A DNA stretch of 64,000 nucleotides from contig NZ_SZPR01000008.1 in assembly GCF_005280195.1 (NCBI RefSeq), forward strand, positions 1 to 64,000, written 5' to 3'. The notes under the pieces were generated by a model, which saw only the letters and a list, made by a program, of their open reading frames with translations, was not told the DNA's origin and did no database searches. Shown in pieces: positions 29,631 through 38,321 of this stretch. Made by a program: the position numbers and the translations under genes. The stretch's first letter is position 1; every line of letters starts with the position of its first letter. This DNA is from Streptomyces galbus (GTDB lineage Bacteria > Actinomycetota > Actinomycetes > Streptomycetales > Streptomycetaceae).

Positions 29631-30335
29631 TTATCCGCGCGAGGCGACCGGGGCGGCGTAGAAGGCGTGCCGCACCCGGCGCAGCCACGCCTCCGCCGGG
29701 GCCTCGTCGGGGTGGTCCGGCAGGGCGCTGCGGGTCTCGGCGAAGGCCGTCTCGAAGCGCCGCAGCAGCGGCTCGGCGGCCCCGGGGTCGGCCGCGACCT
29801 GCTCGCCGAAGCGGTGGTAGGCGTCCGGGTCGTCGACCCGGATGGTCAACTCCCCCGTGCGGTACAGCTCGAAGCCCTGCTCGCACAGCCGCCTGAGGTG
29901 GCGGGCGTGCTTGGCGGTGCGCCCGCGGGTGCCCGGCGGGAGCGGACCGGCGCTGCGCGACAGGAGCTTGCGGAACTGCTGGGTGGCGTAGCCCAGGTAG
30001 GCGTCGCGGACCCGGCCGGCGCTGAGGAAGGAGGCGCGGATGCCGATGAGCTCCTCGCCGAGCGGGGTGCGGACCTCGTACAACTCGTCCGGCAGCCAGA
30101 CGAGTTCCATAACCGTGGGGTTGCCGCCGAGGGCGAGGCGGCACCACTTGGCCGCCTCGTGCAGGGTGCGGTCCGGGGCGGTGCTGACGTGGGACTCGGC
30201 CGGCCGGTGCAGGCCGTGCAGGTCCTCGGTGGGCGCGGCGAACAGCCCGAGGCGGTCCACGTCGGAGCCCGCGCGGGCGAGTCCGTACGCGGTCGAGCCG
30301 ACGATGCCGGACAGCAGGACGTTGGTGACGGACAT
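29631..30335 (-). CDS. Predicted nucleotidyltransferase (DNA polymerase beta superfamily)
   Basis: A 234-residue protein. The N-terminal GIVGSTAYGLARAGSDVDRLGLF contains the GS-x-GLx-SDxD core of the nucleotidyltransferase fold, with two metal-binding aspartates. The rest is helical (KHARHLRRLCEQGFELYR). Members are widespread in actinomycetes and phages, with mostly unknown substrates. It ends with TAA, unusual here, and is read in the same direction as the EF-G paralogue but about 360 bases upstream. Confidence 0.85.
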   Translation of the reverse strand: MSVTNVLLSGIVGSTAYGLARAGSDVDRLGLFAAPTEDLHGLHRPAESHVSTAPDRTLHEAAKWCRLALGGNPTVMELVWLPDELYEVRTPLGEELIGIRASFLSAGRVRDAYLGYATQQFRKLLSRSAGPLPPGTRGRTAKHARHLRRLCEQGFELYRTGELTIRVDDPDAYHRFGEQVAADPGAAEPLLRRFETAFAETRSALPDHPDEAPAEAWLRRVRHAFYAAPVASRG

Positions 30336-30532
30336 GGTGTTCCCCCTAGGTGTGGCCCGGCCATGATGCCGCGTCGGACGGGTCGGTCACCCGCCATTTT
30401 CCGGGTCGGCGCAGGTCAGCCCCGCCCGGCGCCGCCCGTCCCGCGAGGCTTTGGCCATACCCTCACCCCTCTCGCAAGACCGTCCCCCTGTGATCCTTGT
30501 CGCCGGTGTGCGGGGAGTGCGAGGAGTTCCGC

Positions 30533-30589
30533 ATGGGCAGCCTGCCCGTGCGTGAGAGGTCGGTGTCGTTCCTGTGGGGGAATCCGTGA
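30533..30589 (+). CDS. 18-residue leader peptide coupled to the flavin monooxygenase
   Basis: ATG 30533 is preceded by GAGGAG at eight bases. The ORF encodes [18 protein letters not shown] and its TGA (30587-30589) overlaps the GTG start of the monooxygenase (GTGA at 30586-30589). It is too short to be an enzyme. The tight overlap points to translational coupling. Trp four residues before a terminal Pro-stop recalls the TnaC leader, which senses tryptophan; here that is only an analogy. Confidence 0.6.
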
Positions 30590-31872
30590 GCGTGTGTGTC
30601 ATCGGTGCGGGCCTGTCCGGGCTGGCGGCGGCACGCGCCCTCAAGGCGCGGGGCGTGGAGTTCGTCTGCCTGGAGAAGTCGCCCGGCGTCGGCGGCATCT
30701 GGCGGGCGCCCGGCGCGGGTGAGCGCGGCCCGGGTTACCTGTCGCTGCACCTCAACTCCACGAAGCAGCTCACCGGTTACGCCGACCACCCGATGCCGGA
30801 CTCCTACCCGGTCTACCCGCGCCACAGCGACATGGCCGCCTACCTGCGGGCGTACGCCGAGTGGGCCGGCGTGCTCGACCACATCGAGCTGGAGACCACC
30901 GTGGAGTCCGTGCGGCCGACGGCCGACGGCGCCTGGACGGTGGTCAGCCGGTCCGCGGGCGGCGCGCGCACGGCCCGCGCGTTCAGCCAGGTGCTCGTCG
31001 CCTCGGGGCACAACACCGAACCGTTCCTGCCGGCCCCGCCCCCGGGTTCCGAGACCTTCGGGGGAACGATTCTGCACGCCTACGACTACCGCGACGGCAG
31101 CGACTGGGCGGGCCGGCGGGTCGTGGTCGTGGGGCTCGGCGCCTCGGCCGTGGACATCGCCGCGGACCTCTCCCGGTACGCCGAACGTACCCTGCTGTCG
31201 GTGCGCCGCGGGCTGCACATCCTGCCCAAGCAGCTCTTCGGCGTCCCGCTGGACGAGGTGGCCGAGGCGCCCTGGTGGACCGCGATGTCGCTGGCCGAGC
31301 AGCGCCGCTTCCTCGAACAGGCGCTGCTGGTGGCCCGCGGCAAGCTCTCCGACTACGGGCTGCCCGAGCCCGACCACCCGGTCTTCGCCTCGGCGGTGAC
31401 GCTCTCGGACGAGATCCTCAGCCGGATCCGCCACGGCGGTGTCGTGCCCAGGCCGGCGATCGACCGGCTCGACGGCGACCGGGTGCACTTCACCGACGGC
31501 AGCTCCGAGCGCGCCGACGCCGTCGTCTACTGCACGGGGTACCGCATGGCGTTCCCCTTCCTGCCCGACGGCTGCCCGATCGGCCCCCAGGGTGCGGTCG
31601 AGCTGTACAAGCGGGTCGTGGCTCCCGACCACCCGGGGCTGTTCTTCATCGGGCTGGTCCGTCCGCACGGGTCGATCACCCGGCTCGTGGAGGCCCAGGT
31701 GGACTGGGTGGCGCGGCTGGCGACGGGCGAGGCGGCGCTGCCCGAGCCGGAGGTCATGCGCAAGGAGATCGCCACGTACCTCGGGGGCATCGCCGGCCAG
31801 TACGGCAGCCGCGAGGGCGCGTCGATCCAGGTCAACTTCGCGCCCTACCTGGAGGAGTTGCGGGAGGTGTGA
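30586..31872 (+). CDS. Flavin-dependent monooxygenase (FMO), IptB-like
   Basis: A 428-residue FAD/NADPH enzyme. FAD-binding GAGLSG is at the N-terminus, the FMO signature [11 protein letters not shown] (FxGxxxHxxxY) lies near residue 160, and NADPH-binding [11 protein letters not shown] follows. GTG 30586 is preferred over GTG 30574 because GGGGGA lies just upstream and the leader stop overlaps it. With the DMATS-type gene 1 kb away, the pair matches known actinobacterial tryptophan prenyltransferase/FMO loci that make prenylated indole carbaldehydes or acetonitriles; the exact product is inferred only. Confidence 0.87.
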
Positions 31873-32151
31873 GACGGCGGCCGGGGCTGCTCCCGGCCGA
31901 GCGGCCAGGGTCCGGACGCGGGTCGTCTCCCGCCACCGGGCCCTCGGTGCGTCCGGCAGTGGTCGCATGATGTCCCGGTCGGGGTCGGTTTCTCTTCGCC
32001 GCAGGTGACGGTCGTCCGATGCATGCAGATGCCGATGAAACAACCGTCCGGAATGGCCAGTTTGTGCGTGGTGACGCTCTCCCACCTGCCCCCACACTCT
32101 TGCGTGTCCATGGCAGACAGGTCGTGGACACACAACGGGGAGGAAACATCC

Positions 32152-32532
32152 ATGACAGCACTGAATCGGACCGGGTTGGCGTTCGCGGCTGTGGCCGCGT
32201 TCGTCGTCCCCACGGTCACAGGCATGACCGTCACCACCGCAGCGGCGCACGCTCCGTGCAGTTCGTCGGCCCCTGCGGACCGGGACAGCACGGGCTGGAA
32301 CGCAACGGGCGACAACAGCCGGATGCGCACCGGTTCGAGCACGACCTGCACGGCAGTCAGTAGCGCTCGTCCGGGCGACCACCTGGACTACCACTGCTAC
32401 ACGTTCGGCAACGACGGCTACACCTGGACCTACCTCCGCAACGACACCCGGAGCCCCGACACGTACGGCTGGGTTCGCGACGATGTCCTGTCCGACGGCG
32501 GCAGCGGTGTCCTGTGCCCCGAGTACGACTAG
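32152..32532 (+). CDS. Small secreted SH3-like protein
   Basis: A 126-residue exported protein. The signal peptide runs from MTALNRTGLAFAAVAAF to AAAHA. The mature part has four cysteines, probably two disulfides, and ends with YTWTYLRNDTRS then YGWVRDDVL, the pattern of bacterial SH3 domains. GGGGAGGAA precedes ATG 32152. Codon use is less G/C-rich than its neighbours, suggesting recent arrival. Role unknown; it sits between the two prenyl-indole genes and has its own terminator. The 279 bases before it hold a weak GTGTCCA/TGGACAC repeat (32104-32131) and no gene. Confidence 0.75.
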   Translation: MTALNRTGLAFAAVAAFVVPTVTGMTVTTAAAHAPCSSSAPADRDSTGWNATGDNSRMRTGSSTTCTAVSSARPGDHLDYHCYTFGNDGYTWTYLRNDTRSPDTYGWVRDDVLSDGGSGVLCPEYD

Positions 32533-32604
32533 GTTCTGGGCCCTCGGTCAGCACCGTGACCGGATCAGGATGAAGGAGCTTGCCTGAGCTCGCGCCGCTT
32601 TGAG

Positions 32605-32645
32605 AAGGCCCGTACCCCTTGCGCTCCGCAAAGGGTACGGGCCTT
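32605..32645 (+). terminator. Terminator after the SH3-like gene
   Basis: AAGGCCCGTACCC (32605-32617) and GGGTACGGGCCTT (32633-32645) form a perfect 13-bp stem. The remainder of the gene-free interval 32533-32857 shows no convincing feature. Confidence 0.85.
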
Positions 32646-32857
32646 CGCCCCGTGCGAGTTCGCACGGCGTGCCGTGACGGCAGCAGCGCCGGACCTCACG
32701 ACTTCGTGCGCGACGGCGGAGGGGACGGCGCGGTTGAAGCGAAGGCAGCTTGGCACCGCCCAGCCCATCAACCGCGCTGAAGGACCGGCCGTCAGCGTGG
32801 TCGGTGACGCTCGCACTCATCCGTGACATCCACCGCCGTCCGACGGCGCTGCACGGC

Positions 32858-34015
32858 TCAGGGTACCCGCGCGACCGCGGGTCGCCCCGCCCGCAAGGGG
32901 GCCGGGGGACGGACGTGGTACGCCTCGCAGGAGAGGTACGTCGTCACCCGCGGCGGGTGGCCGTCCTGGTGGGCGGCGGAGAGGTAGGCGACGAGGCCCA
33001 CGCCGTCCTCCGGGCGGCGGGCGGTCAGGGCCCGGGTGGCCTCGCGCAGGACCCCGTCGTCGATGCCGTGGCGGTGCAGCAGGGCCGTGGCGCGGGTCAG
33101 GGCCTCGCCGTCGTGGGCGGCGTAGTCCCGGACCGGTACGTGCAGGGTGAAGCCGCTGGGCCGTCCGGTCGCCGTCTCGGTGAAGGCGTGGCAGGACTGC
33201 ACGGGCCGGCGGGTGGGCCGTCCGCCCGGTCCGGTGTCCGCCTCGTCCTCGTGGCCGAGTCCGGACGCGATGCGGAAGAACGTTTCTGTCTCCTCGGCCG
33301 GCGGTCCCCCGGCGGTCCGGCACAGTGCTCCCGCCTCGGTGGCCGAGAGGTTCTGGTGGGCCAGGTAGACCTTCACCCGCGGCGCGTCCCAGTCCCCGAG
33401 GTCCAGGGCGAGGAACAGGTGCCGGTCGCCCTCCGGCAGCGCGGCGAACGCCCGGCCGTGACCGAGCCGCGCCAGCGCCTCCCGTACGGTGTCGGCGGCG
33501 CGGTCGGCGCCGCGGGCCGCCGGGTTGAGGTACGCCTTCAGTCGGGGCACGCCGCCGGGCCGCAGCTCGAGCGCGCACCACAGGGCCAAGGGTCCCTCGG
33601 GGGCGTCGGGGAAGAACAGGTCCTCCAGCTCGTCGAGCCGGTCGGTCGGGAAGGCCCACCGCCGCGCCGTCTCCCGCAGGAACCGCAGCCCCGCACGGCC
33701 GTTTCGGGCCAGGGTGCCTGCGCCGCACCCCGGTTCCAGCAGCACCCGCAGGGTCGGGGCGGCGTCCGGCACGAAGGACAGCGAGAACTCGACCGGGGTG
33801 TGGTCGTCGGAGAGGAAGGAAGGGTGGGGCGGCGGCAGGTCCAGCGGCCGTTCGGCCGCCGGGCCCAGGGCCTCCAGCAGGACGCGTACGTAAGCGGCGG
33901 CGTCGCTCCCGTCGAGGCCCGCGACCTCGCACAGCCGCAGGAGCTGCCGGGCGGTGTGGCCGCCGAGCGAGGCGGCCTCGGGGAGCGTGGGTGTGCCGTC
34001 GCCGGGGGCTCTCAC
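32858..34015 (-). CDS. DMATS-type aromatic prenyltransferase, IptA-like
   Basis: A 385-residue ABBA-barrel enzyme that attaches a dimethylallyl group to an indole, probably tryptophan. Family motifs: TPVEFSLSF (the Glu that contacts the indole N-H), RLKAYLNP, RVKVYLAHQ and VTTYLSCEAY, with Lys/Arg/Tyr residues for the diphosphate. GTG 34015 is used because the leader ORF stop overlaps it (GTGA) and GGAGG lies upstream; a start at 34165 would add an Arg-rich, unfamily-like segment. It probably acts with the flavin monooxygenase at 30586. Confidence 0.88.
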   Translation of the reverse strand: MRAPGDGTPTLPEAASLGGHTARQLLRLCEVAGLDGSDAAAYVRVLLEALGPAAERPLDLPPPHPSFLSDDHTPVEFSLSFVPDAAPTLRVLLEPGCGAGTLARNGRAGLRFLRETARRWAFPTDRLDELEDLFFPDAPEGPLALWCALELRPGGVPRLKAYLNPAARGADRAADTVREALARLGHGRAFAALPEGDRHLFLALDLGDWDAPRVKVYLAHQNLSATEAGALCRTAGGPPAEETETFFRIASGLGHEDEADTGPGGRPTRRPVQSCHAFTETATGRPSGFTLHVPVRDYAAHDGEALTRATALLHRHGIDDGVLREATRALTARRPEDGVGLVAYLSAAHQDGHPPRVTTYLSCEAYHVRPPAPLRAGRPAVARVP

Positions 34016-34137
34016 CACGCCTCCGACCGCCGGCCGGTCAGCCGGACAAGAAGATACCCGCCGTCGTGGGCGGGTATCGGGGGGAGCACGACGAGGGGCC
34101 GGGGTATGTGAACGGCGTCGGTGGATAGAGGGTCCAC
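34012..34137 (-). CDS. 41-residue leader ORF coupled to the prenyltransferase
   Basis: GTG 34137 has GAAGGAGGTG directly upstream, an almost perfect ribosome-binding site. The peptide begins VDPLSTDAVHIPRPLVVLPP and ends SEAW, and its TGA overlaps the prenyltransferase GTG (GTGA at 34012-34015). A strong hairpin lies inside it. Like the monooxygenase leader it ends near a Trp, the likely substrate of the pathway. Coupled translation is strongly suggested; sensing of Trp is hypothesis. It could also be a small functional protein. Confidence 0.6.
   Translation of the reverse strand: MDPLSTDAVHIPRPLVVLPPIPAHDGGYLLVRLTGRRSEAW
34053..34078 (-). promoter_or_regulatory. Hairpin inside the prenyltransferase leader ORF
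   Basis: GATACCCGCC (34053-34062) pairs perfectly with GGCGGGTATC (34069-34078), 6-base loop. It lies about 40 bases before the prenyltransferase start and could act as an attenuator or stop read-through from the conservon. Confidence 0.6.
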
Positions 34138-34154
34138 GACACCTCCTTCGACTC

Positions 34155-34184
34155 GTGAGCAACACGGATGACCGCGTTGCTCAC
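34155..34184. promoter_or_regulatory. Inverted repeat upstream of the prenyltransferase leader
   Basis: GTGAGCAAC (34155-34163) and GTTGCTCAC (34176-34184), 12-base centre. It lies just upstream of the leader ribosome-binding site, a position fitting an operator near the transcription start. Confidence 0.55.
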
Positions 34185-34240
34185 TACCCAAGAGGTTGAA
34201 TCGTCATGCGACGGTGATGAGTTGGTGGATGTTGCGTGAA

Positions 34241-35590
34241 TCACCTAGTCAGCCAGTTGAGGAACTGGCTCCACATACCTCCGCGTTCGGTCTTGCGGTC
34301 CGTCGCGGCGGCCGGTTCCTGGCGCGCGGAGGTGTCGGCCGGGGCGGCGGCCGAGGAGCGGCGCGCGACGTCGACCGGGGTGAACCGGGCGGGCAGGGTG
34401 GCCAGTCCGCGGTTGAACGGGCCGGGGCGCCAGGTCAGGCTGTCCGCGGGCACCGCGAGCTCCACGTCGGGCAGCTTGTTCAGCAGGTTCTCGATCGCGG
34501 TGACGGTGATCTGCCGGGCGGGCTCCTTGGAGGGGCAGGCGTGCGGGCCCGCGCTCCACGCCAGGTGCGCCCGGTTGCTGCCGGCCTGCCGGGCGGCGGT
34601 CAGCGCCGGGCCGGTGTTGGCGGCGGCGAAGCTGACCAGCAGCAGGTCGCCGGCCTGCAGCCGGGTCCCGCCGAACTCCATGTCGGCCACCGGGTAGTGC
34701 GGGGCCAGGTTGGACATGGGCGGGTTCTCCCACAGCGTGTCGTCGATCGCCTCGTCGATCAGCCCGCCCTGGTGGGCGTACGCGTCGTGGGTGAGCAGCC
34801 GGTGCAGGGTGTTGCCGATGAGGTTGCGCAGCGGCTCGTTGCCGCCCACCATCAGCAGCGCGAGCTGGTGGACCATCTCCTCGTCGGTGAGCTGCGCCGG
34901 GTGCTGCATCAGCCAGGTGGTGACGTCGTCGCCGGGCCGGCTCCGCTTGAGCGCGACCAGTTCACCGACGGCCGTGAACAGCACGCCCATGGCCTTCTCG
35001 GCGTTGACGCCGTCGAACATGCCGGCGATGCCGAACACCACGCGGTCGCCGATGTCGGCGGGGACGCCGAACAGCTCGTTGAAGACGAACAGCGGGAGCT
35101 GCTTGGCGTAGTCGCCCAGCAGGTCGGCCGAACCCCGGGCGCCGAACTGGGAGATGAGGAAGTCGGAGACGCGCGCGGTGGCCTGGCTGACCTTGCGGGG
35201 GTCCACCTTGGCCATGCTGTCGGTGATCGCCTGACGCAGCCTCAGGTGCTCGGCGCCGTCGCTGAACATGGCGTTCGGGCGGTACGCCAGCACCGGCGCG
35301 ACCGGGCTGTCCGGCGGGACCTTGCCCTCGCCCAGGGCGCGCCAGCGGCGGGCGTCCTTGCGGAACGAGGCGGAGTCCTGCAGGAGTTGCAGCGCGGTGG
35401 CGTAGTCGGTGACGAGGGTGGCCTCGACGCCGGGGGCGAGCTCGACGGGCGCGGTGGGGCCGTAGTGGCGCAGGTAGGCGTAGTACGCCTGGGGGTCCGC
35501 GGCGAACTCGGGGCCGTACAGGGGCACTCGGGCACCGGAGTGGTGCGCCGGGCACCCCGGCGGGGGCACAGGGGTGGAGAGGTCGTCCAA
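34241..35590 (-). CDS. Conservon-associated cytochrome P450 (CYP157-like) lacking ExxR
   Basis: A 449-residue P450, last gene of the conservon. The haem loop is LAWSAGPHACPS with Cys352; the usual Phe is Trp, and the Gly after Cys-x is Ser. The K-helix ExxR is replaced by DDTLW at 283-287, as in the CYP157 family, whose S. coelicolor member is known for EQSLW instead of ExxR. The I-helix reads LLMVGGNEPLRN, also divergent. The C-terminus ends MWSQFLNWLTR, an amphipathic tail. TTG 35590 is chosen for the TAGGAG upstream. Activity is uncertain. Confidence 0.87.
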   Translation of the reverse strand: MDDLSTPVPPPGCPAHHSGARVPLYGPEFAADPQAYYAYLRHYGPTAPVELAPGVEATLVTDYATALQLLQDSASFRKDARRWRALGEGKVPPDSPVAPVLAYRPNAMFSDGAEHLRLRQAITDSMAKVDPRKVSQATARVSDFLISQFGARGSADLLGDYAKQLPLFVFNELFGVPADIGDRVVFGIAGMFDGVNAEKAMGVLFTAVGELVALKRSRPGDDVTTWLMQHPAQLTDEEMVHQLALLMVGGNEPLRNLIGNTLHRLLTHDAYAHQGGLIDEAIDDTLWENPPMSNLAPHYPVADMEFGGTRLQAGDLLLVSFAAANTGPALTAARQAGSNRAHLAWSAGPHACPSKEPARQITVTAIENLLNKLPDVELAVPADSLTWRPGPFNRGLATLPARFTPVDVARRSSAAAPADTSARQEPAAATDRKTERGGMWSQFLNWLTR

Positions 35591-35601
35591 GGGGGTGGCT
35601 C

Positions 35602-36195
35602 CTAGTGGGCGCGGTCCTGCAGGTGGCGGACGAGGGTGATGAGTGCTTCGGCGGAGGATCGCTCGTCGCGCGCGTCGCAGGTGACGACGGGGGTGTCGTC
35701 GAGGAGGTCGAGTGCCTCGCGCAGGGCGGACTCGTCGCGGGGCGTGCTGCCGTCGAACCGGTTGACGGCGATGGCGTAGTCCAGGCCGTACTGCTCGATC
35801 AGGTCGATCACGGCGAAAGAGTCGGCCAGCCGCTCGGGGTCGACCAGCACCAGCGCGCCGAGCGCGCCGCGGGCCATGTCCTCCCACATCTGCACGAAGC
35901 GCTGCTGGCCGGGCGTGCCGAACAGGTAGAGCACGACGCGGTCGCTGATGGTCAGCCGGCCGAAGTCCATGGCGACCGTGGTGGTGGTCTTGCCCTGGAC
36001 GCCCTTGAGATCGTCGACGGACTCGGCGGCCCGGGTCATCGTCTCCTCGGTGGACAGCGGCTCGATCTCGGAGATCGCCCCGATGAACGTGGTCTTGCCG
36101 ACCGCGAAGTGGCCCACCACGAGGATCTTCACGGCGGTCTGGGTCGCGCCGCCGCGGACGTACGCCGCCTCATCCAAACTTGGCCCTGAGACCAT
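35602..36195 (-). CDS. cvnD: Conservon GTPase/ATP-GTP-binding protein
   Basis: A 197-residue small G-protein-like protein. P-loop GHFAVGKTT at 28-36, switch-like KTTTTVAMDFGRL, and NRFDG as the guanine-specificity (NKxD-like) motif. It works with the sensor-like, roadblock and DUF742 proteins at the membrane in a eukaryote-like signalling complex. Its start lies 26 bases inside the DUF742 gene, and 11 bases separate its stop from the P450 start. Confidence 0.92.
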   Translation of the reverse strand: MVSGPSLDEAAYVRGGATQTAVKILVVGHFAVGKTTFIGAISEIEPLSTEETMTRAAESVDDLKGVQGKTTTTVAMDFGRLTISDRVVLYLFGTPGQQRFVQMWEDMARGALGALVLVDPERLADSFAVIDLIEQYGLDYAIAVNRFDGSTPRDESALREALDLLDDTPVVTCDARDERSSAEALITLVRHLQDRAH

Positions 36196-36547
36196 TCAGC
36201 ACCTCCTCCAGGATGTCCCGGTCGGCGAGGGGGGCCCGCTGCACGGGCGGGCGGGTGATGAGGTAGCCGCCTTCGGTGAGGGCGGCGAGAAGGATCTTCA
36301 CCACGCCGAGCGGCAGCTGGGTGTGGCCCGCGATCTCGGCGACCGAGAGGTAGCCGGCCGAGCACAGGTCCAGCAGGTTCTGCTCCTCCGGTGACAGGCG
36401 GGTCGGCCGTTGCCGGTGGTCGGCCACCGCCGTGACCAGGGTGATCAGCGAGAGCTGGTCCTCGTCGGGCAGCCCGCGTCCCTTGGTGATGACGTACGGA
36501 CGCACTAACTCGGGCGTCTGCGGCTCCAGTTCGTCGTAGCCGGTCAT
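36170..36547 (-). CDS. cvnC: Conservon DUF742 protein
   Basis: A 125-residue winged-helix-like DUF742 protein. LVRPYVITKGRG and LCSAGYLSVAEIAGHTQLPLGVVKILLAAL match the family. It is expected to bridge the roadblock and GTPase components. ATG 36547 overlaps the stop of the roadblock gene (ATGA), and the GTPase gene begins within its 3' end. Confidence 0.92.
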   Translation of the reverse strand: MTGYDELEPQTPELVRPYVITKGRGLPDEDQLSLITLVTAVADHRQRPTRLSPEEQNLLDLCSAGYLSVAEIAGHTQLPLGVVKILLAALTEGGYLITRPPVQRAPLADRDILEEVLNGLRAKFG

Positions 36548-36942
36548 GAGCGCGCGCCCAGGTTCTCGCGCGGCGGCGTGGTGAGCGCCTTGCCGAGCTG
36601 GCCGACGAGCTGCTGCATGCGGAAGGTGATGTCCGCCATGTCGACGTCCGGGGAGGCGGACACGCCGAGGTAGGCGCCCTCACCGGCGGAGATCAGGAAC
36701 ACCCAGCCGCCGTCGAACTCGACGAGCGTCTGCCGCCACTGCTGGTTGGCGCCCTCGCAGAAGAACCCCAGCGAGCGGCTGAGCGACTGCACCCCGCTCA
36801 TCGCGGCGGCCACCCGGTCGGCGTTGTCCTTGTCGAAGTCCTTGGTGCGGGCCATCAGCAGGCCATCCGCGGAGATCAGCACCGCGTGCAGAGCCCCGGG
36901 AATCTCCAGGGCGCTGTCCAGCATCCATGACAGATCGTTCAC
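36544..36942 (-). CDS. cvnB: Conservon roadblock/LC7-domain protein
   Basis: A 132-residue roadblock/LC7 protein (LDSALEIPGALHAVLISADGLLMA, GEGAYLGVSASPDVDM). Such proteins regulate the partner GTPase, like MglB for MglA. ATG 36942 overlaps the stop of the kinase-like gene, so translation is coupled. Confidence 0.93.
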   Translation of the reverse strand: MNDLSWMLDSALEIPGALHAVLISADGLLMARTKDFDKDNADRVAAAMSGVQSLSRSLGFFCEGANQQWRQTLVEFDGGWVFLISAGEGAYLGVSASPDVDMADITFRMQQLVGQLGKALTTPPRENLGARS

Positions 36943-38141
36943 GAGATCTCATGCCCTTCACTGCTCGCACCACGGGTGCTGCTCGTCATGTCGGTGTCCG
37001 CCTGTGTGGCCCGGCCCGACTGCGTACCCCGCTGGAAGGCGCCCATGATCGCCGCCGACTCGGCGCCGCTGCGCCGGGACGCACCGGCCGGGGCGGCGGG
37101 AGGCAGGGAGGGGGCGGGCGCGGCCGACGGCGTGCTCGGCACGACCGCCATGGGGCGCTTGCGGCGCCGCTTGGGCAGGCCGTCGGCGGTAGTGGTGCCG
37201 CCCAGCGCCGGCTCGGGACCGCCGAGGCTCGCCGTGGTGGCGACCGTGGGCAGGACCGGAGCGGGCTCCCGCTGCTCGGGCGCGCTGGTGAGCAGGTCGT
37301 GGGGCAGCAGCAGGACGGCGCGCACACCGCCGTACGGGGACGTGGAGTCGACGGAGACCTCGAAGCCGAAGCGCTCGGCGAGCACACCGATCACCGCGAA
37401 CCCGAACTGCGGCGGGTTGCCGAGACCGGCGACGCCGGAGACGCGCTCGGTGGACAGGAGCTTCTCGGCGCGGGCCCGCTCCTCGTCGTTCATGCCGACA
37501 CCGGCGTCGTCGACGACGATGCAGATGCCCTTGGGCACGGTCCGGATGTTGATCTCCACGACCGTGTCGGGGCTGGAGTAGCTGGTCGCGTTGTCCAGCA
37601 GCTCGGCGAGGGCCAGGGCGACGGGCTCCACCGCGCGGCTGGTGATGCCGAAGTCGACCTGGGAGAGGATCTCCACCCGCCGGTAGTGGCGGATCCGGCC
37701 CTGGGCGCTGCGCACCACGTCGTAGACCGAGGCGACGTCGCGCTGCCGGCCGAGCCAGCCGTCGCACAGCACGGCGATGGACTGGGCGCGGCGGCCGAAC
37801 TGGGAGTTGGTGTGGTCGATCTCCAGCAGGTCCTGGAGGATGACCGACTCGCCGTACTTGGTCTGCAGCCGTGACACGATCAGCTGCTGCTCGGCGGCGA
37901 GGCCCTGCAGGGTCCGCATGGCCGACTTCAGCACGGTCTTGGTGGCGTCGTCGGCGCGCTCCTGGGCCGTCTGGACCGACTGGGCGTACTGGTTCTCCAG
38001 CTCGGAGTAGTGGGAGCGGAGGCCGTCGATCTCCTGCCTCAAGGCGCGTGCCGCCCTGCGCTGGCGTACCACGAGCGCAATGGCGGCGATGACGGCGACC
38101 AGGAGAATCCCGGCCACCGGGTCCGGTATGTAATGCGTCAT
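36939..38141 (-). CDS. cvnA: Conservon sensor histidine-kinase-like membrane protein
   Basis: A 400-residue protein: a short N-terminus, one transmembrane helix (VAGILLVAVIAAIALVV, about 9-26), a coiled coil (ALRQEIDGLRSHYSELENQ), then a GHKL ATPase domain with LAELLDNATSYS (N box) and DDAGVGMNDEE (G1 box). No clear phospho-acceptor His of a classical kinase was seen. The C-terminal third is Pro/Ala-rich and disordered. It lacks the long extracellular nitrate-sensor domain of larger CvnA proteins. ATG 38141 is preceded by GAAGAGAG. Confidence 0.9.
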   Translation of the reverse strand: MTHYIPDPVAGILLVAVIAAIALVVRQRRAARALRQEIDGLRSHYSELENQYAQSVQTAQERADDATKTVLKSAMRTLQGLAAEQQLIVSRLQTKYGESVILQDLLEIDHTNSQFGRRAQSIAVLCDGWLGRQRDVASVYDVVRSAQGRIRHYRRVEILSQVDFGITSRAVEPVALALAELLDNATSYSSPDTVVEINIRTVPKGICIVVDDAGVGMNDEERARAEKLLSTERVSGVAGLGNPPQFGFAVIGVLAERFGFEVSVDSTSPYGGVRAVLLLPHDLLTSAPEQREPAPVLPTVATTASLGGPEPALGGTTTADGLPKRRRKRPMAVVPSTPSAAPAPSLPPAAPAGASRRSGAESAAIMGAFQRGTQSGRATQADTDMTSSTRGASSEGHEIS

Positions 38142-38321
38142 AAGACTCTCTTCAGGCGACTGACGGCCAGTTGCTGAATTTCCGTCGACGCGGGTGGACC
38201 GGCGGACCGCCCGCACCGGGGTCACCGCCCGGACCGTCCCCTGCAGTCGGGGATGTCGTCTTGCACGCATCCGCCCGCTCTACAAACGAGCGTGATCGTA
38301 TCACCGTGCGAACCGCTCACC

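Follow-up and report, generated by a model that had tools for sequence, protein, structure and literature searches.

The window, by which we mean the whole stretch of 64,000 nucleotides analysed here, belongs to a 7.8-Mb genome and carries on its minus strand, in this order, a conservon operon, a P450-like gene and, after about 100 nt, a short leader ORF followed by a Trp_DMAT prenyltransferase (PT) gene (Table 1). The PT matches the PF11991 profile above its cut-off (E=2.5e-13), which places it in the DMATS/Trp_DMAT family; the TIGR03429 profile also matches, with E=1.8e-44, but its 152.7 bits fall below the cut-off of 163.85. The locus is close to that of Streptomyces longwoodensis (L002), whose PT is 94% identical, and the start listed for the PT of S. 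cadmiisoli is the GTG equivalent to the one at which we begin the gene. The P450-like protein has no Pfam match and the P450 models in NCBIfam stay below cut-off, while the S. cadmiisoli gene at the same position is annotated as a cytochrome P450. The flavin monooxygenase (FMO) gene runs toward the PT gene, as it does wherever else an FMO was identified. The locus matches, in these respects, what is described for the SCO7467/SCO7468 cluster, whose product is 5-dimethylallylindole-3-acetonitrile (PMC3617294). Between the convergent FMO and PT genes sits a small ORF (32005-32532, plus strand) that seems to encode a signal peptide.

Table 1. Features of the prenyltransferase locus, in window coordinates
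Feature	Coordinates	Strand	Remarks
SigB-like promoter of FMO, GNNTN-N15-GGGCAG	30515..30540	+	overlaps ATG of the claimed FMO leader
Flavin monooxygenase (FMO) gene	30574-31872	+	convergent to PT
Tryptophan prenyltransferase (DMATS family, SCO7467/IptA-like)	32858..34015	-	start GTG 34015, alternative in-frame GTG 34018
Leader ORF, 41 codons and stop, spans hairpin	34012..34137	-	GTG 34137, TGA 34014-34012
T-rich tail TTCTTG after hairpin	34047..34052	-	
Near-invariant hairpin GATACCCGCC-CACGAC-GGCGGGTATC, ten pairs, N6 loop	34053..34078	-	inside leader ORF
Leader Shine-Dalgarno (SD) AAGGAGG	34142..34148	-	GGAGG 4 nt from leader GTG
13-bp dyad GTGAGCAACGCGG..CCGTGTTGCTCAC	34155..34184	-	overlaps expected transcription start
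SigB-family-like promoter GCATGA-N14-GGGTAG	34184..34209	-	upstream of leader
Conservon operon: kinase-like, Roadblock, DUF742, GTPase, P450-like	34241..38270	-	HATPase_c, Robl_LC7, DUF742, ATP_bind_1

An earlier note on this DNA had described a strong ribosome-binding site, a 41-codon ORF with a 10-bp hairpin inside it and a stop lying on the PT GTG, all of which we confirm; the ORF translates as VDPLSTDAVHIPRPLVVLPPIPAHDGGYLLVRLTGRRSEAW up to its stop, and that TGA overlaps GTG 34015 as GTGA. The ending SEAW, singled out in the same note, is indeed present in the window and recurs only in its sister L002; among the other non-fused leaders just one, L101, has a terminal W, and Arg closes 59 of the 71 non-fused leaders. 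An open frame of 41 codons means little by itself at such GC content. The leader is nevertheless unlikely to be a product of chance, because its start, frame, hairpin and stop overlap recur in most of 99 loci and in a plasmid locus outside the discovery set.

These loci were the best 80 of 124 GTDB relatives, 29 more from the window's genus (whose search gave DNA for 30 of 43 PT matches, one being the window itself) and the window, 110 in all and 99 after removal of near-identical ones. A leader was called from an SD on a short list, a GGGTA box 46-68 nt upstream and a frame open through the hairpin, whereas the end of the ORF was not used; the SD, promoter and openness rules thus select the counted loci, and those features are partly pre-selected. 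By this rule the ORF is far from absent in close orthologues: 85 of the 99 non-redundant loci have a leader, 79 have the hairpin with at most 4 mismatches, and 77 have both. The 14 loci leaderless by rule are L030, L035, L056, L060, L062, L071, L072, L076, L077, L078, L079, L080, L099 and L100, among which L035 and L100 have the hairpin; L035 has a leader-like start 134 nt from the hairpin (2 mod 3) that was missed since its SD is outside the list. In two PT matches, L110 and L112, one in-frame TGA lies inside the matched region.

The end of the leader played no part in its selection. In each of the 71 non-fused leaders the stop, as xTGA, coincides with an in-frame PT start, the overlapping stop and start of a translationally coupled pair, and the other 14 of the 85 are fused in frame to the PT. 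The distance from leader start to hairpin takes 15 values from 44 to 140 nt in 69 loci, every one of them 2 mod 3, and a single value of 60 nt (0 mod 3) in the 8 loci of one clade. A PT tree of 97 of the 99 rows, built by a quick method, requires at least 20 changes of this distance and one of its residue mod 3 (P=1.2e-8, assuming that a third of distance changes keep the frame by chance). Between leader start and PT start the leader frame contains a stop in 0 of 67 loci, the PT frame in 15 and the third frame in 43, with openness up to the hairpin being part of the choice rule; from the hairpin to the PT start, which includes the stretch beyond the hairpin that the rule did not cover, the counts are 0, 11 and 5. 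All 77 leaders with a hairpin stay open through it, as far as its end by pre-selection, and we saw no locus in which a homologous leader start had been passed over because its frame closed ahead of the hairpin. Length varies between 32 and 83 codons among the 67 non-fused leaders with a hairpin. Of the 85 leaders, 75 start after a 6-nt SD match, SD being part of the choice rule, and a 4-nt SD-like motif lies ahead of the PT start in 43 of the 71 non-fused loci.

Departures from the common arrangement fall into a few lineages. L003, L005, L007, L009, L010, L011, L016 and L075 form one clade in which the leader uses another frame and is fused to the PT, of which it is possibly an N-terminal extension; six of seven loci of this clade keep the hairpin sequence to within 2 mismatches, the seventh, L075, shows paired changes, and in the eighth, L016, the hairpin is degraded. 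In the sub-clade of L063, L064, L066 and L067, and also in L116, a leader of 77-79 codons and the stop overlap are kept and the hairpin is absent, and in the Kitasatospora loci L049, L055, L059 and L081 a leader without a hairpin is fused to the PT; judging from these loci, the hairpin is not obligatory. L115, L116 and L117 are prenylindole-type clusters on large Streptomyces plasmids, with conservon genes upstream in L115 and L116. Four plasmid loci were examined after the discovery, and two of them (L115 and L116) have a coupled leader, in both cases at the listed PT start. In L115, from S. cadmiisoli, a promoter box, a 35-codon leader and a perfect hairpin are followed by an overlap exactly at the listed start, and the PLSDB table, which is incomplete, gives no annotated gene over this leader. 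L116 (NBC_00470), where the cluster is of tryptophanase type, combines a 77-codon leader with the overlap and lacks the hairpin; L117 and L118 have neither coupled leader nor hairpin.

Whereas the frame is retained, the peptide appears free to drift. Outside the hairpin, an omega-like ratio of 0.85 compares with 0.90 and 0.79 in the two off-frame controls (23 locus pairs that share no row but may share branches, scored at codons with at most one difference), so the conserved peptide expected of a RiPP precursor or a functional small protein is not seen, and differences fall evenly on the three codon positions (79, 93 and 80). Differences affect 4 of 460 sites in the hairpin arms and 252 of 1952 sites outside the hairpin. 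Within the hairpin, the corresponding codon slots hold ATA in 62 of 66 cases and TAT in 64 of 66, two codons that, within the 5' part of the PT gene, encode only 8% of the Ile and 6% of the Tyr residues; this use of rare codons, together with the T-rich tail, points to constraint on nucleotides. With an omega-like ratio no different from the wrong frames, nearly frozen arms and rare codons, what is kept is the hairpin's nucleotides and an open frame, not a peptide, and we suggest from these comparisons that selection appears to keep the passage of ribosomes. Retention of a leader ORF and retention of its peptide are commonly taken to be linked; here they come apart, the ORF being strictly kept without its peptide. 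We also considered control through polyproline and EF-P and rejected it: PP precedes the hairpin in 33 of 77 loci, and the off frames give 37 and 44.

The hairpin itself is flagged, on the minus strand, as one of four sites in a terminator scan of 30000-36500 (shuffles give 1.2, sd 1.1); the remaining three sites each have 5 pairs. Its mean stem energy is -19.4 kcal/mol in the 77 loci, and in alignment A1, which holds 58 of these loci with a start-to-hairpin distance of 44-71 nt, 99.0% of cells are paired. Two of the ten pairs changed on both sides, covariation being limited because the stem hardly varies, and one-sided G-U changes occur in 3 sequences at one pair. The core arms ACCCGCC/GGCGGGT are intact in 75 of the 77 loci, broken in L016 and L023, and the loop is 6 nt in all 77; L062, outside that count, has 7 nt. 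Where the hairpin has no more than 2 mismatches (73 loci), T makes up 66% of the 5 nt after the stem as against 12% on either side, and the sixth base after the stem is G without exception (73 of 73). At least 3 T fall in those 5 nt in 60 of the 73 loci, mostly interrupted, which leaves a short U-rich tail with breaks in the majority of loci.

Its distribution is restricted. Allowing at most 1 mismatch, we find the hairpin in 26 of 246 genomes of the genus, as a single copy each time and never in the reversed control, and all 26 copies sit just upstream of a PT gene (coordinates compared by eye). The PT gene occurs in 39 of the 246 genomes; 13 of those lack a hairpin at this threshold, and some of the 13 carry more diverged versions (L075/L085, L108, L016/L089). 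The window's own genome has one perfect copy and otherwise only matches with 2 and 3 mismatches. Since the hairpin is single copy per genome, we rejected a regulon-wide operator.

Upstream of the leader, the pattern GNATN-N15-GGGTA is found with exact spacing in 84 of 85 leader loci, in which GGGTA was pre-selected and only the -35 part and the spacing are independent. This agrees with the SigB-family pattern of GNNT and GGGTA about 12-16 nt apart, activity being predicted from sequence, and the window promoter is near-identical to the mapped promoter SCO0566p, GCATAA-N14-GGGTAT, as given in Table 2 of PMC8346170. The dyad next to it is conserved and shows compensatory changes, with 80.7% of cells paired and 6 of 12 pairs changed on both sides (58 loci); in the form GTGAGCAAC-N12-GTTGCTCAC it is unique in the genome, allowing up to 3 mismatches, and is possibly an operator, perhaps of a pathway regulator, or a 5' stem-loop. 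A mini-helix at the start codon, GTGGA..TCCAC, is 92.4% paired, with 1 of 5 pairs changed on both sides, and the consensus fold contains the ten-pair hairpin and one weak 4-pair helix.

RNA folding added little to this picture. The predicted fold of the window pairs the PT start with leader codons; over 67 loci, however, the PT start region has a mean unpaired fraction of 0.30, against 0.26 when the upstream part is shuffled (lower in 26 of 67 loci). Folding the downstream part by itself gives 0.35, a value that 49 of 67 loci fall below, so the start region is slightly less accessible than in that part and no less accessible than in shuffled controls. We dropped folding of the leader over the PT start as evidence for this reason. 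A pseudoknot between the hairpin loop and the PT ribosome-binding region was likewise weak, with a mean of -9.72 versus -9.41 kcal/mol and 5 of 100 permutations at least as low. Rfam returned no relevant family for 33700-34500 and one chance match (E=4.9).

The earlier note had further claimed that two enzymes of one pathway, the PT and the FMO, share the same coupled-leader design, and this found no support. Among 54 FMO loci whose match starts in the first 10 residues, the window's ATGGGCA box is present in 39 and missing from 15. An in-frame xTGA occurs at the window's position (+16) in four loci, namely the window, L002, L061 and L070 (TTG), and at other places near the FMO start in L014, L039, L045 and L052, which gives 8 of the 39 box-bearing loci with such a stop near the start; in 4 FMO loci the box frame is in frame with the FMO, two of them without the usual start codon. 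By comparison, GNNTN-N15-GGG[CT]A lies upstream of the FMO in 42 of 54 loci as against 1.7% of random windows. We therefore rejected a coupled FMO leader as not conserved, its ATG belonging to a SigB-like promoter box. Transcription starts about 8-10 nt past the promoter box in most rows of Table 2 in PMC8346170, and from a start point so far downstream the claimed leader ATG would not be transcribed from the FMO promoter. What the PT and FMO genes seem to have in common is thus a promoter class and not a leader design, and they may be under shared SigB-family control.

Taken together, these loci conserve the leader start, its frame across the hairpin, the overlap of the stop with the PT start, the hairpin and its tail, with no detectable selection on the peptide. 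We consider it an even chance that a translated, largely content-free leader ORF gates the PT gene by pyrBI-like attenuation combined with translational coupling. On this account, a SigB-family-type promoter would start a short mRNA, and ribosomes would load at the strong leader SD, cross the GC-rich terminator-like hairpin, halt at the TGA and re-initiate at the PT start overlapping it, or in some lineages run in frame into the PT. A ribosome close behind RNA polymerase would block the hairpin and let transcription continue; were leader translation to fail or lag, the hairpin would form and transcription would end before the PT. Translation of the leader, termination at the hairpin, its suppression by the ribosome and a signal that modulates leader translation are each inferred, and the case for attenuation relieved by a translating ribosome comes from the pyrBI-like anatomy, in which a leader ORF runs through a terminator-like hairpin with a promoter upstream. 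Delivery of ribosomes to the PT start seems the better supported part, because clades without the hairpin keep the overlap or the fusion.

The same observations lend some weight to translational coupling alone, in which the leader would feed a poorly initiating PT start and the hairpin would tune spacing, mRNA stability or structure. Stop overlap or fusion holds in 85 of 85 leaders, hairpin-less clades included, and the PT start has the weaker SD of the two, with a 4-nt motif in 43 of 71 loci as opposed to a 6-nt match in 75 of 85 at the leader. We regard coupling alone as possible and still rather doubtful, as it leaves the near-invariant arms, the T-rich tail and the restriction of the hairpin to PT genes unexplained, and no sequestration of the PT start is predicted beyond that of shuffled controls.

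Several observations count against an attenuator: the short, mostly broken U-rich tail, the lineages that keep a leader without the hairpin, the low T content ahead of the hairpin, the lack of any predicted sign that the leader specifically hides the PT start, and a stem whose sequence is more invariant than a plain terminator needs. The stem and the sixth-base G vary less than a terminator alone would lead us to expect, which keeps a binding factor in play as a serious rival: the hairpin would be a sequence-specific site, as an RNA stem-loop or a DNA dyad, at which a putative regulator blocks the ribosome or polymerase crossing the leader. The core arms intact in 75 of 77 loci, the constant 6-nt loop, the single perfect genomic copy and the invariant G six bases past the stem in 73 of 73 all suit such a site. 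On the other hand, a DNA operator accounts less well than an RNA hairpin or terminator for the one-sided G-U changes and the T-rich tail, the 246 genomes contain no further site at one mismatch, and the regulator is only hypothetical; we judge this reading unlikely. A further and rather doubtful reading is that the message is the act of translation itself: the ORF would stay open and drift while the ribosome must cross a frozen hairpin read by a putative dedicated factor, tying prenylindole expression to ribosome timing, with a possible link to the conservon operon that precedes it.

A classical leader peptide that senses tryptophan or prenyl-tryptophan, as the earlier note envisaged, is very improbable. 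The window leader does end in Trp next to a Trp-consuming enzyme; Trp, however, is present in 10 of 71 non-fused leaders and at differing positions, unlike the control codons of a trp-type attenuator, selection on the peptide is not seen, and the hairpin lies inside the ORF and not after it, so the trp-type layout of a terminator past the leader stop with antiterminator pairing is not seen. Programmed frameshifting that fuses leader to PT, to which the 14 natural in-frame fusions among 85 leaders might point, has next to no chance, given that 11 of 67 overlap loci have a PT-frame stop somewhere from the start of the hairpin to that of the PT.

Translationally coupled gene pairs are characterized by an ATGA or GTGA overlap and a strong SD on the first ORF, and the leader shares both with them; it differs in that its first ORF is without product selection and contains a conserved hairpin. 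In the pyrBI operon a U-rich, UTP-sensing pause tract precedes the hairpin, whereas window-type leaders have no such tract, T making up 12% of the 25 nt ahead of the hairpin. The E. coli terminator is reported to lie within the 135-bp leader gene (PMC4824070), and an advancing ribosome to suppress termination at the pyr leader (PMC5021804). Here too, a short leader ORF (126 bp in the window, 135 bp for E. coli pyrL) contains a terminator-like hairpin and leads to a structural gene, and a closely following ribosome would prevent the hairpin from forming. Unlike pyrBI, however, the leader varies in length, its stop overlaps the next start, its hairpin is nearly invariant, and it belongs to another pathway and phylum. 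The Streptomyces trp attenuators trpL1 and trpL2 of S. lividans, as described in PMC8079986, likewise place a short ORF and a hairpin before an amino-acid-related gene, and the PT leader differs from them in having no run of control codons, a hairpin within the ORF and an SD-led instead of a leaderless start. A description of a PT leader was not found in the literature searched (open-licence PMC papers), and in PMC3617294 the terms "leader" and "start codon" give 0 matches, so that no leader is mentioned there under those terms. The clusters described in that paper, SCO7467/SCO7468 (type B) and IptA/tryptophanase (type A), are the closest in content, sharing the PT family, the upstream conservon and an FMO or tryptophanase partner. 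As genes of potential clusters in general are often silent or weakly expressed (PMC3617294), a translation-gated switch before the first enzyme would, if true, offer a testable reason for weak expression and a handle to turn the pathway on.
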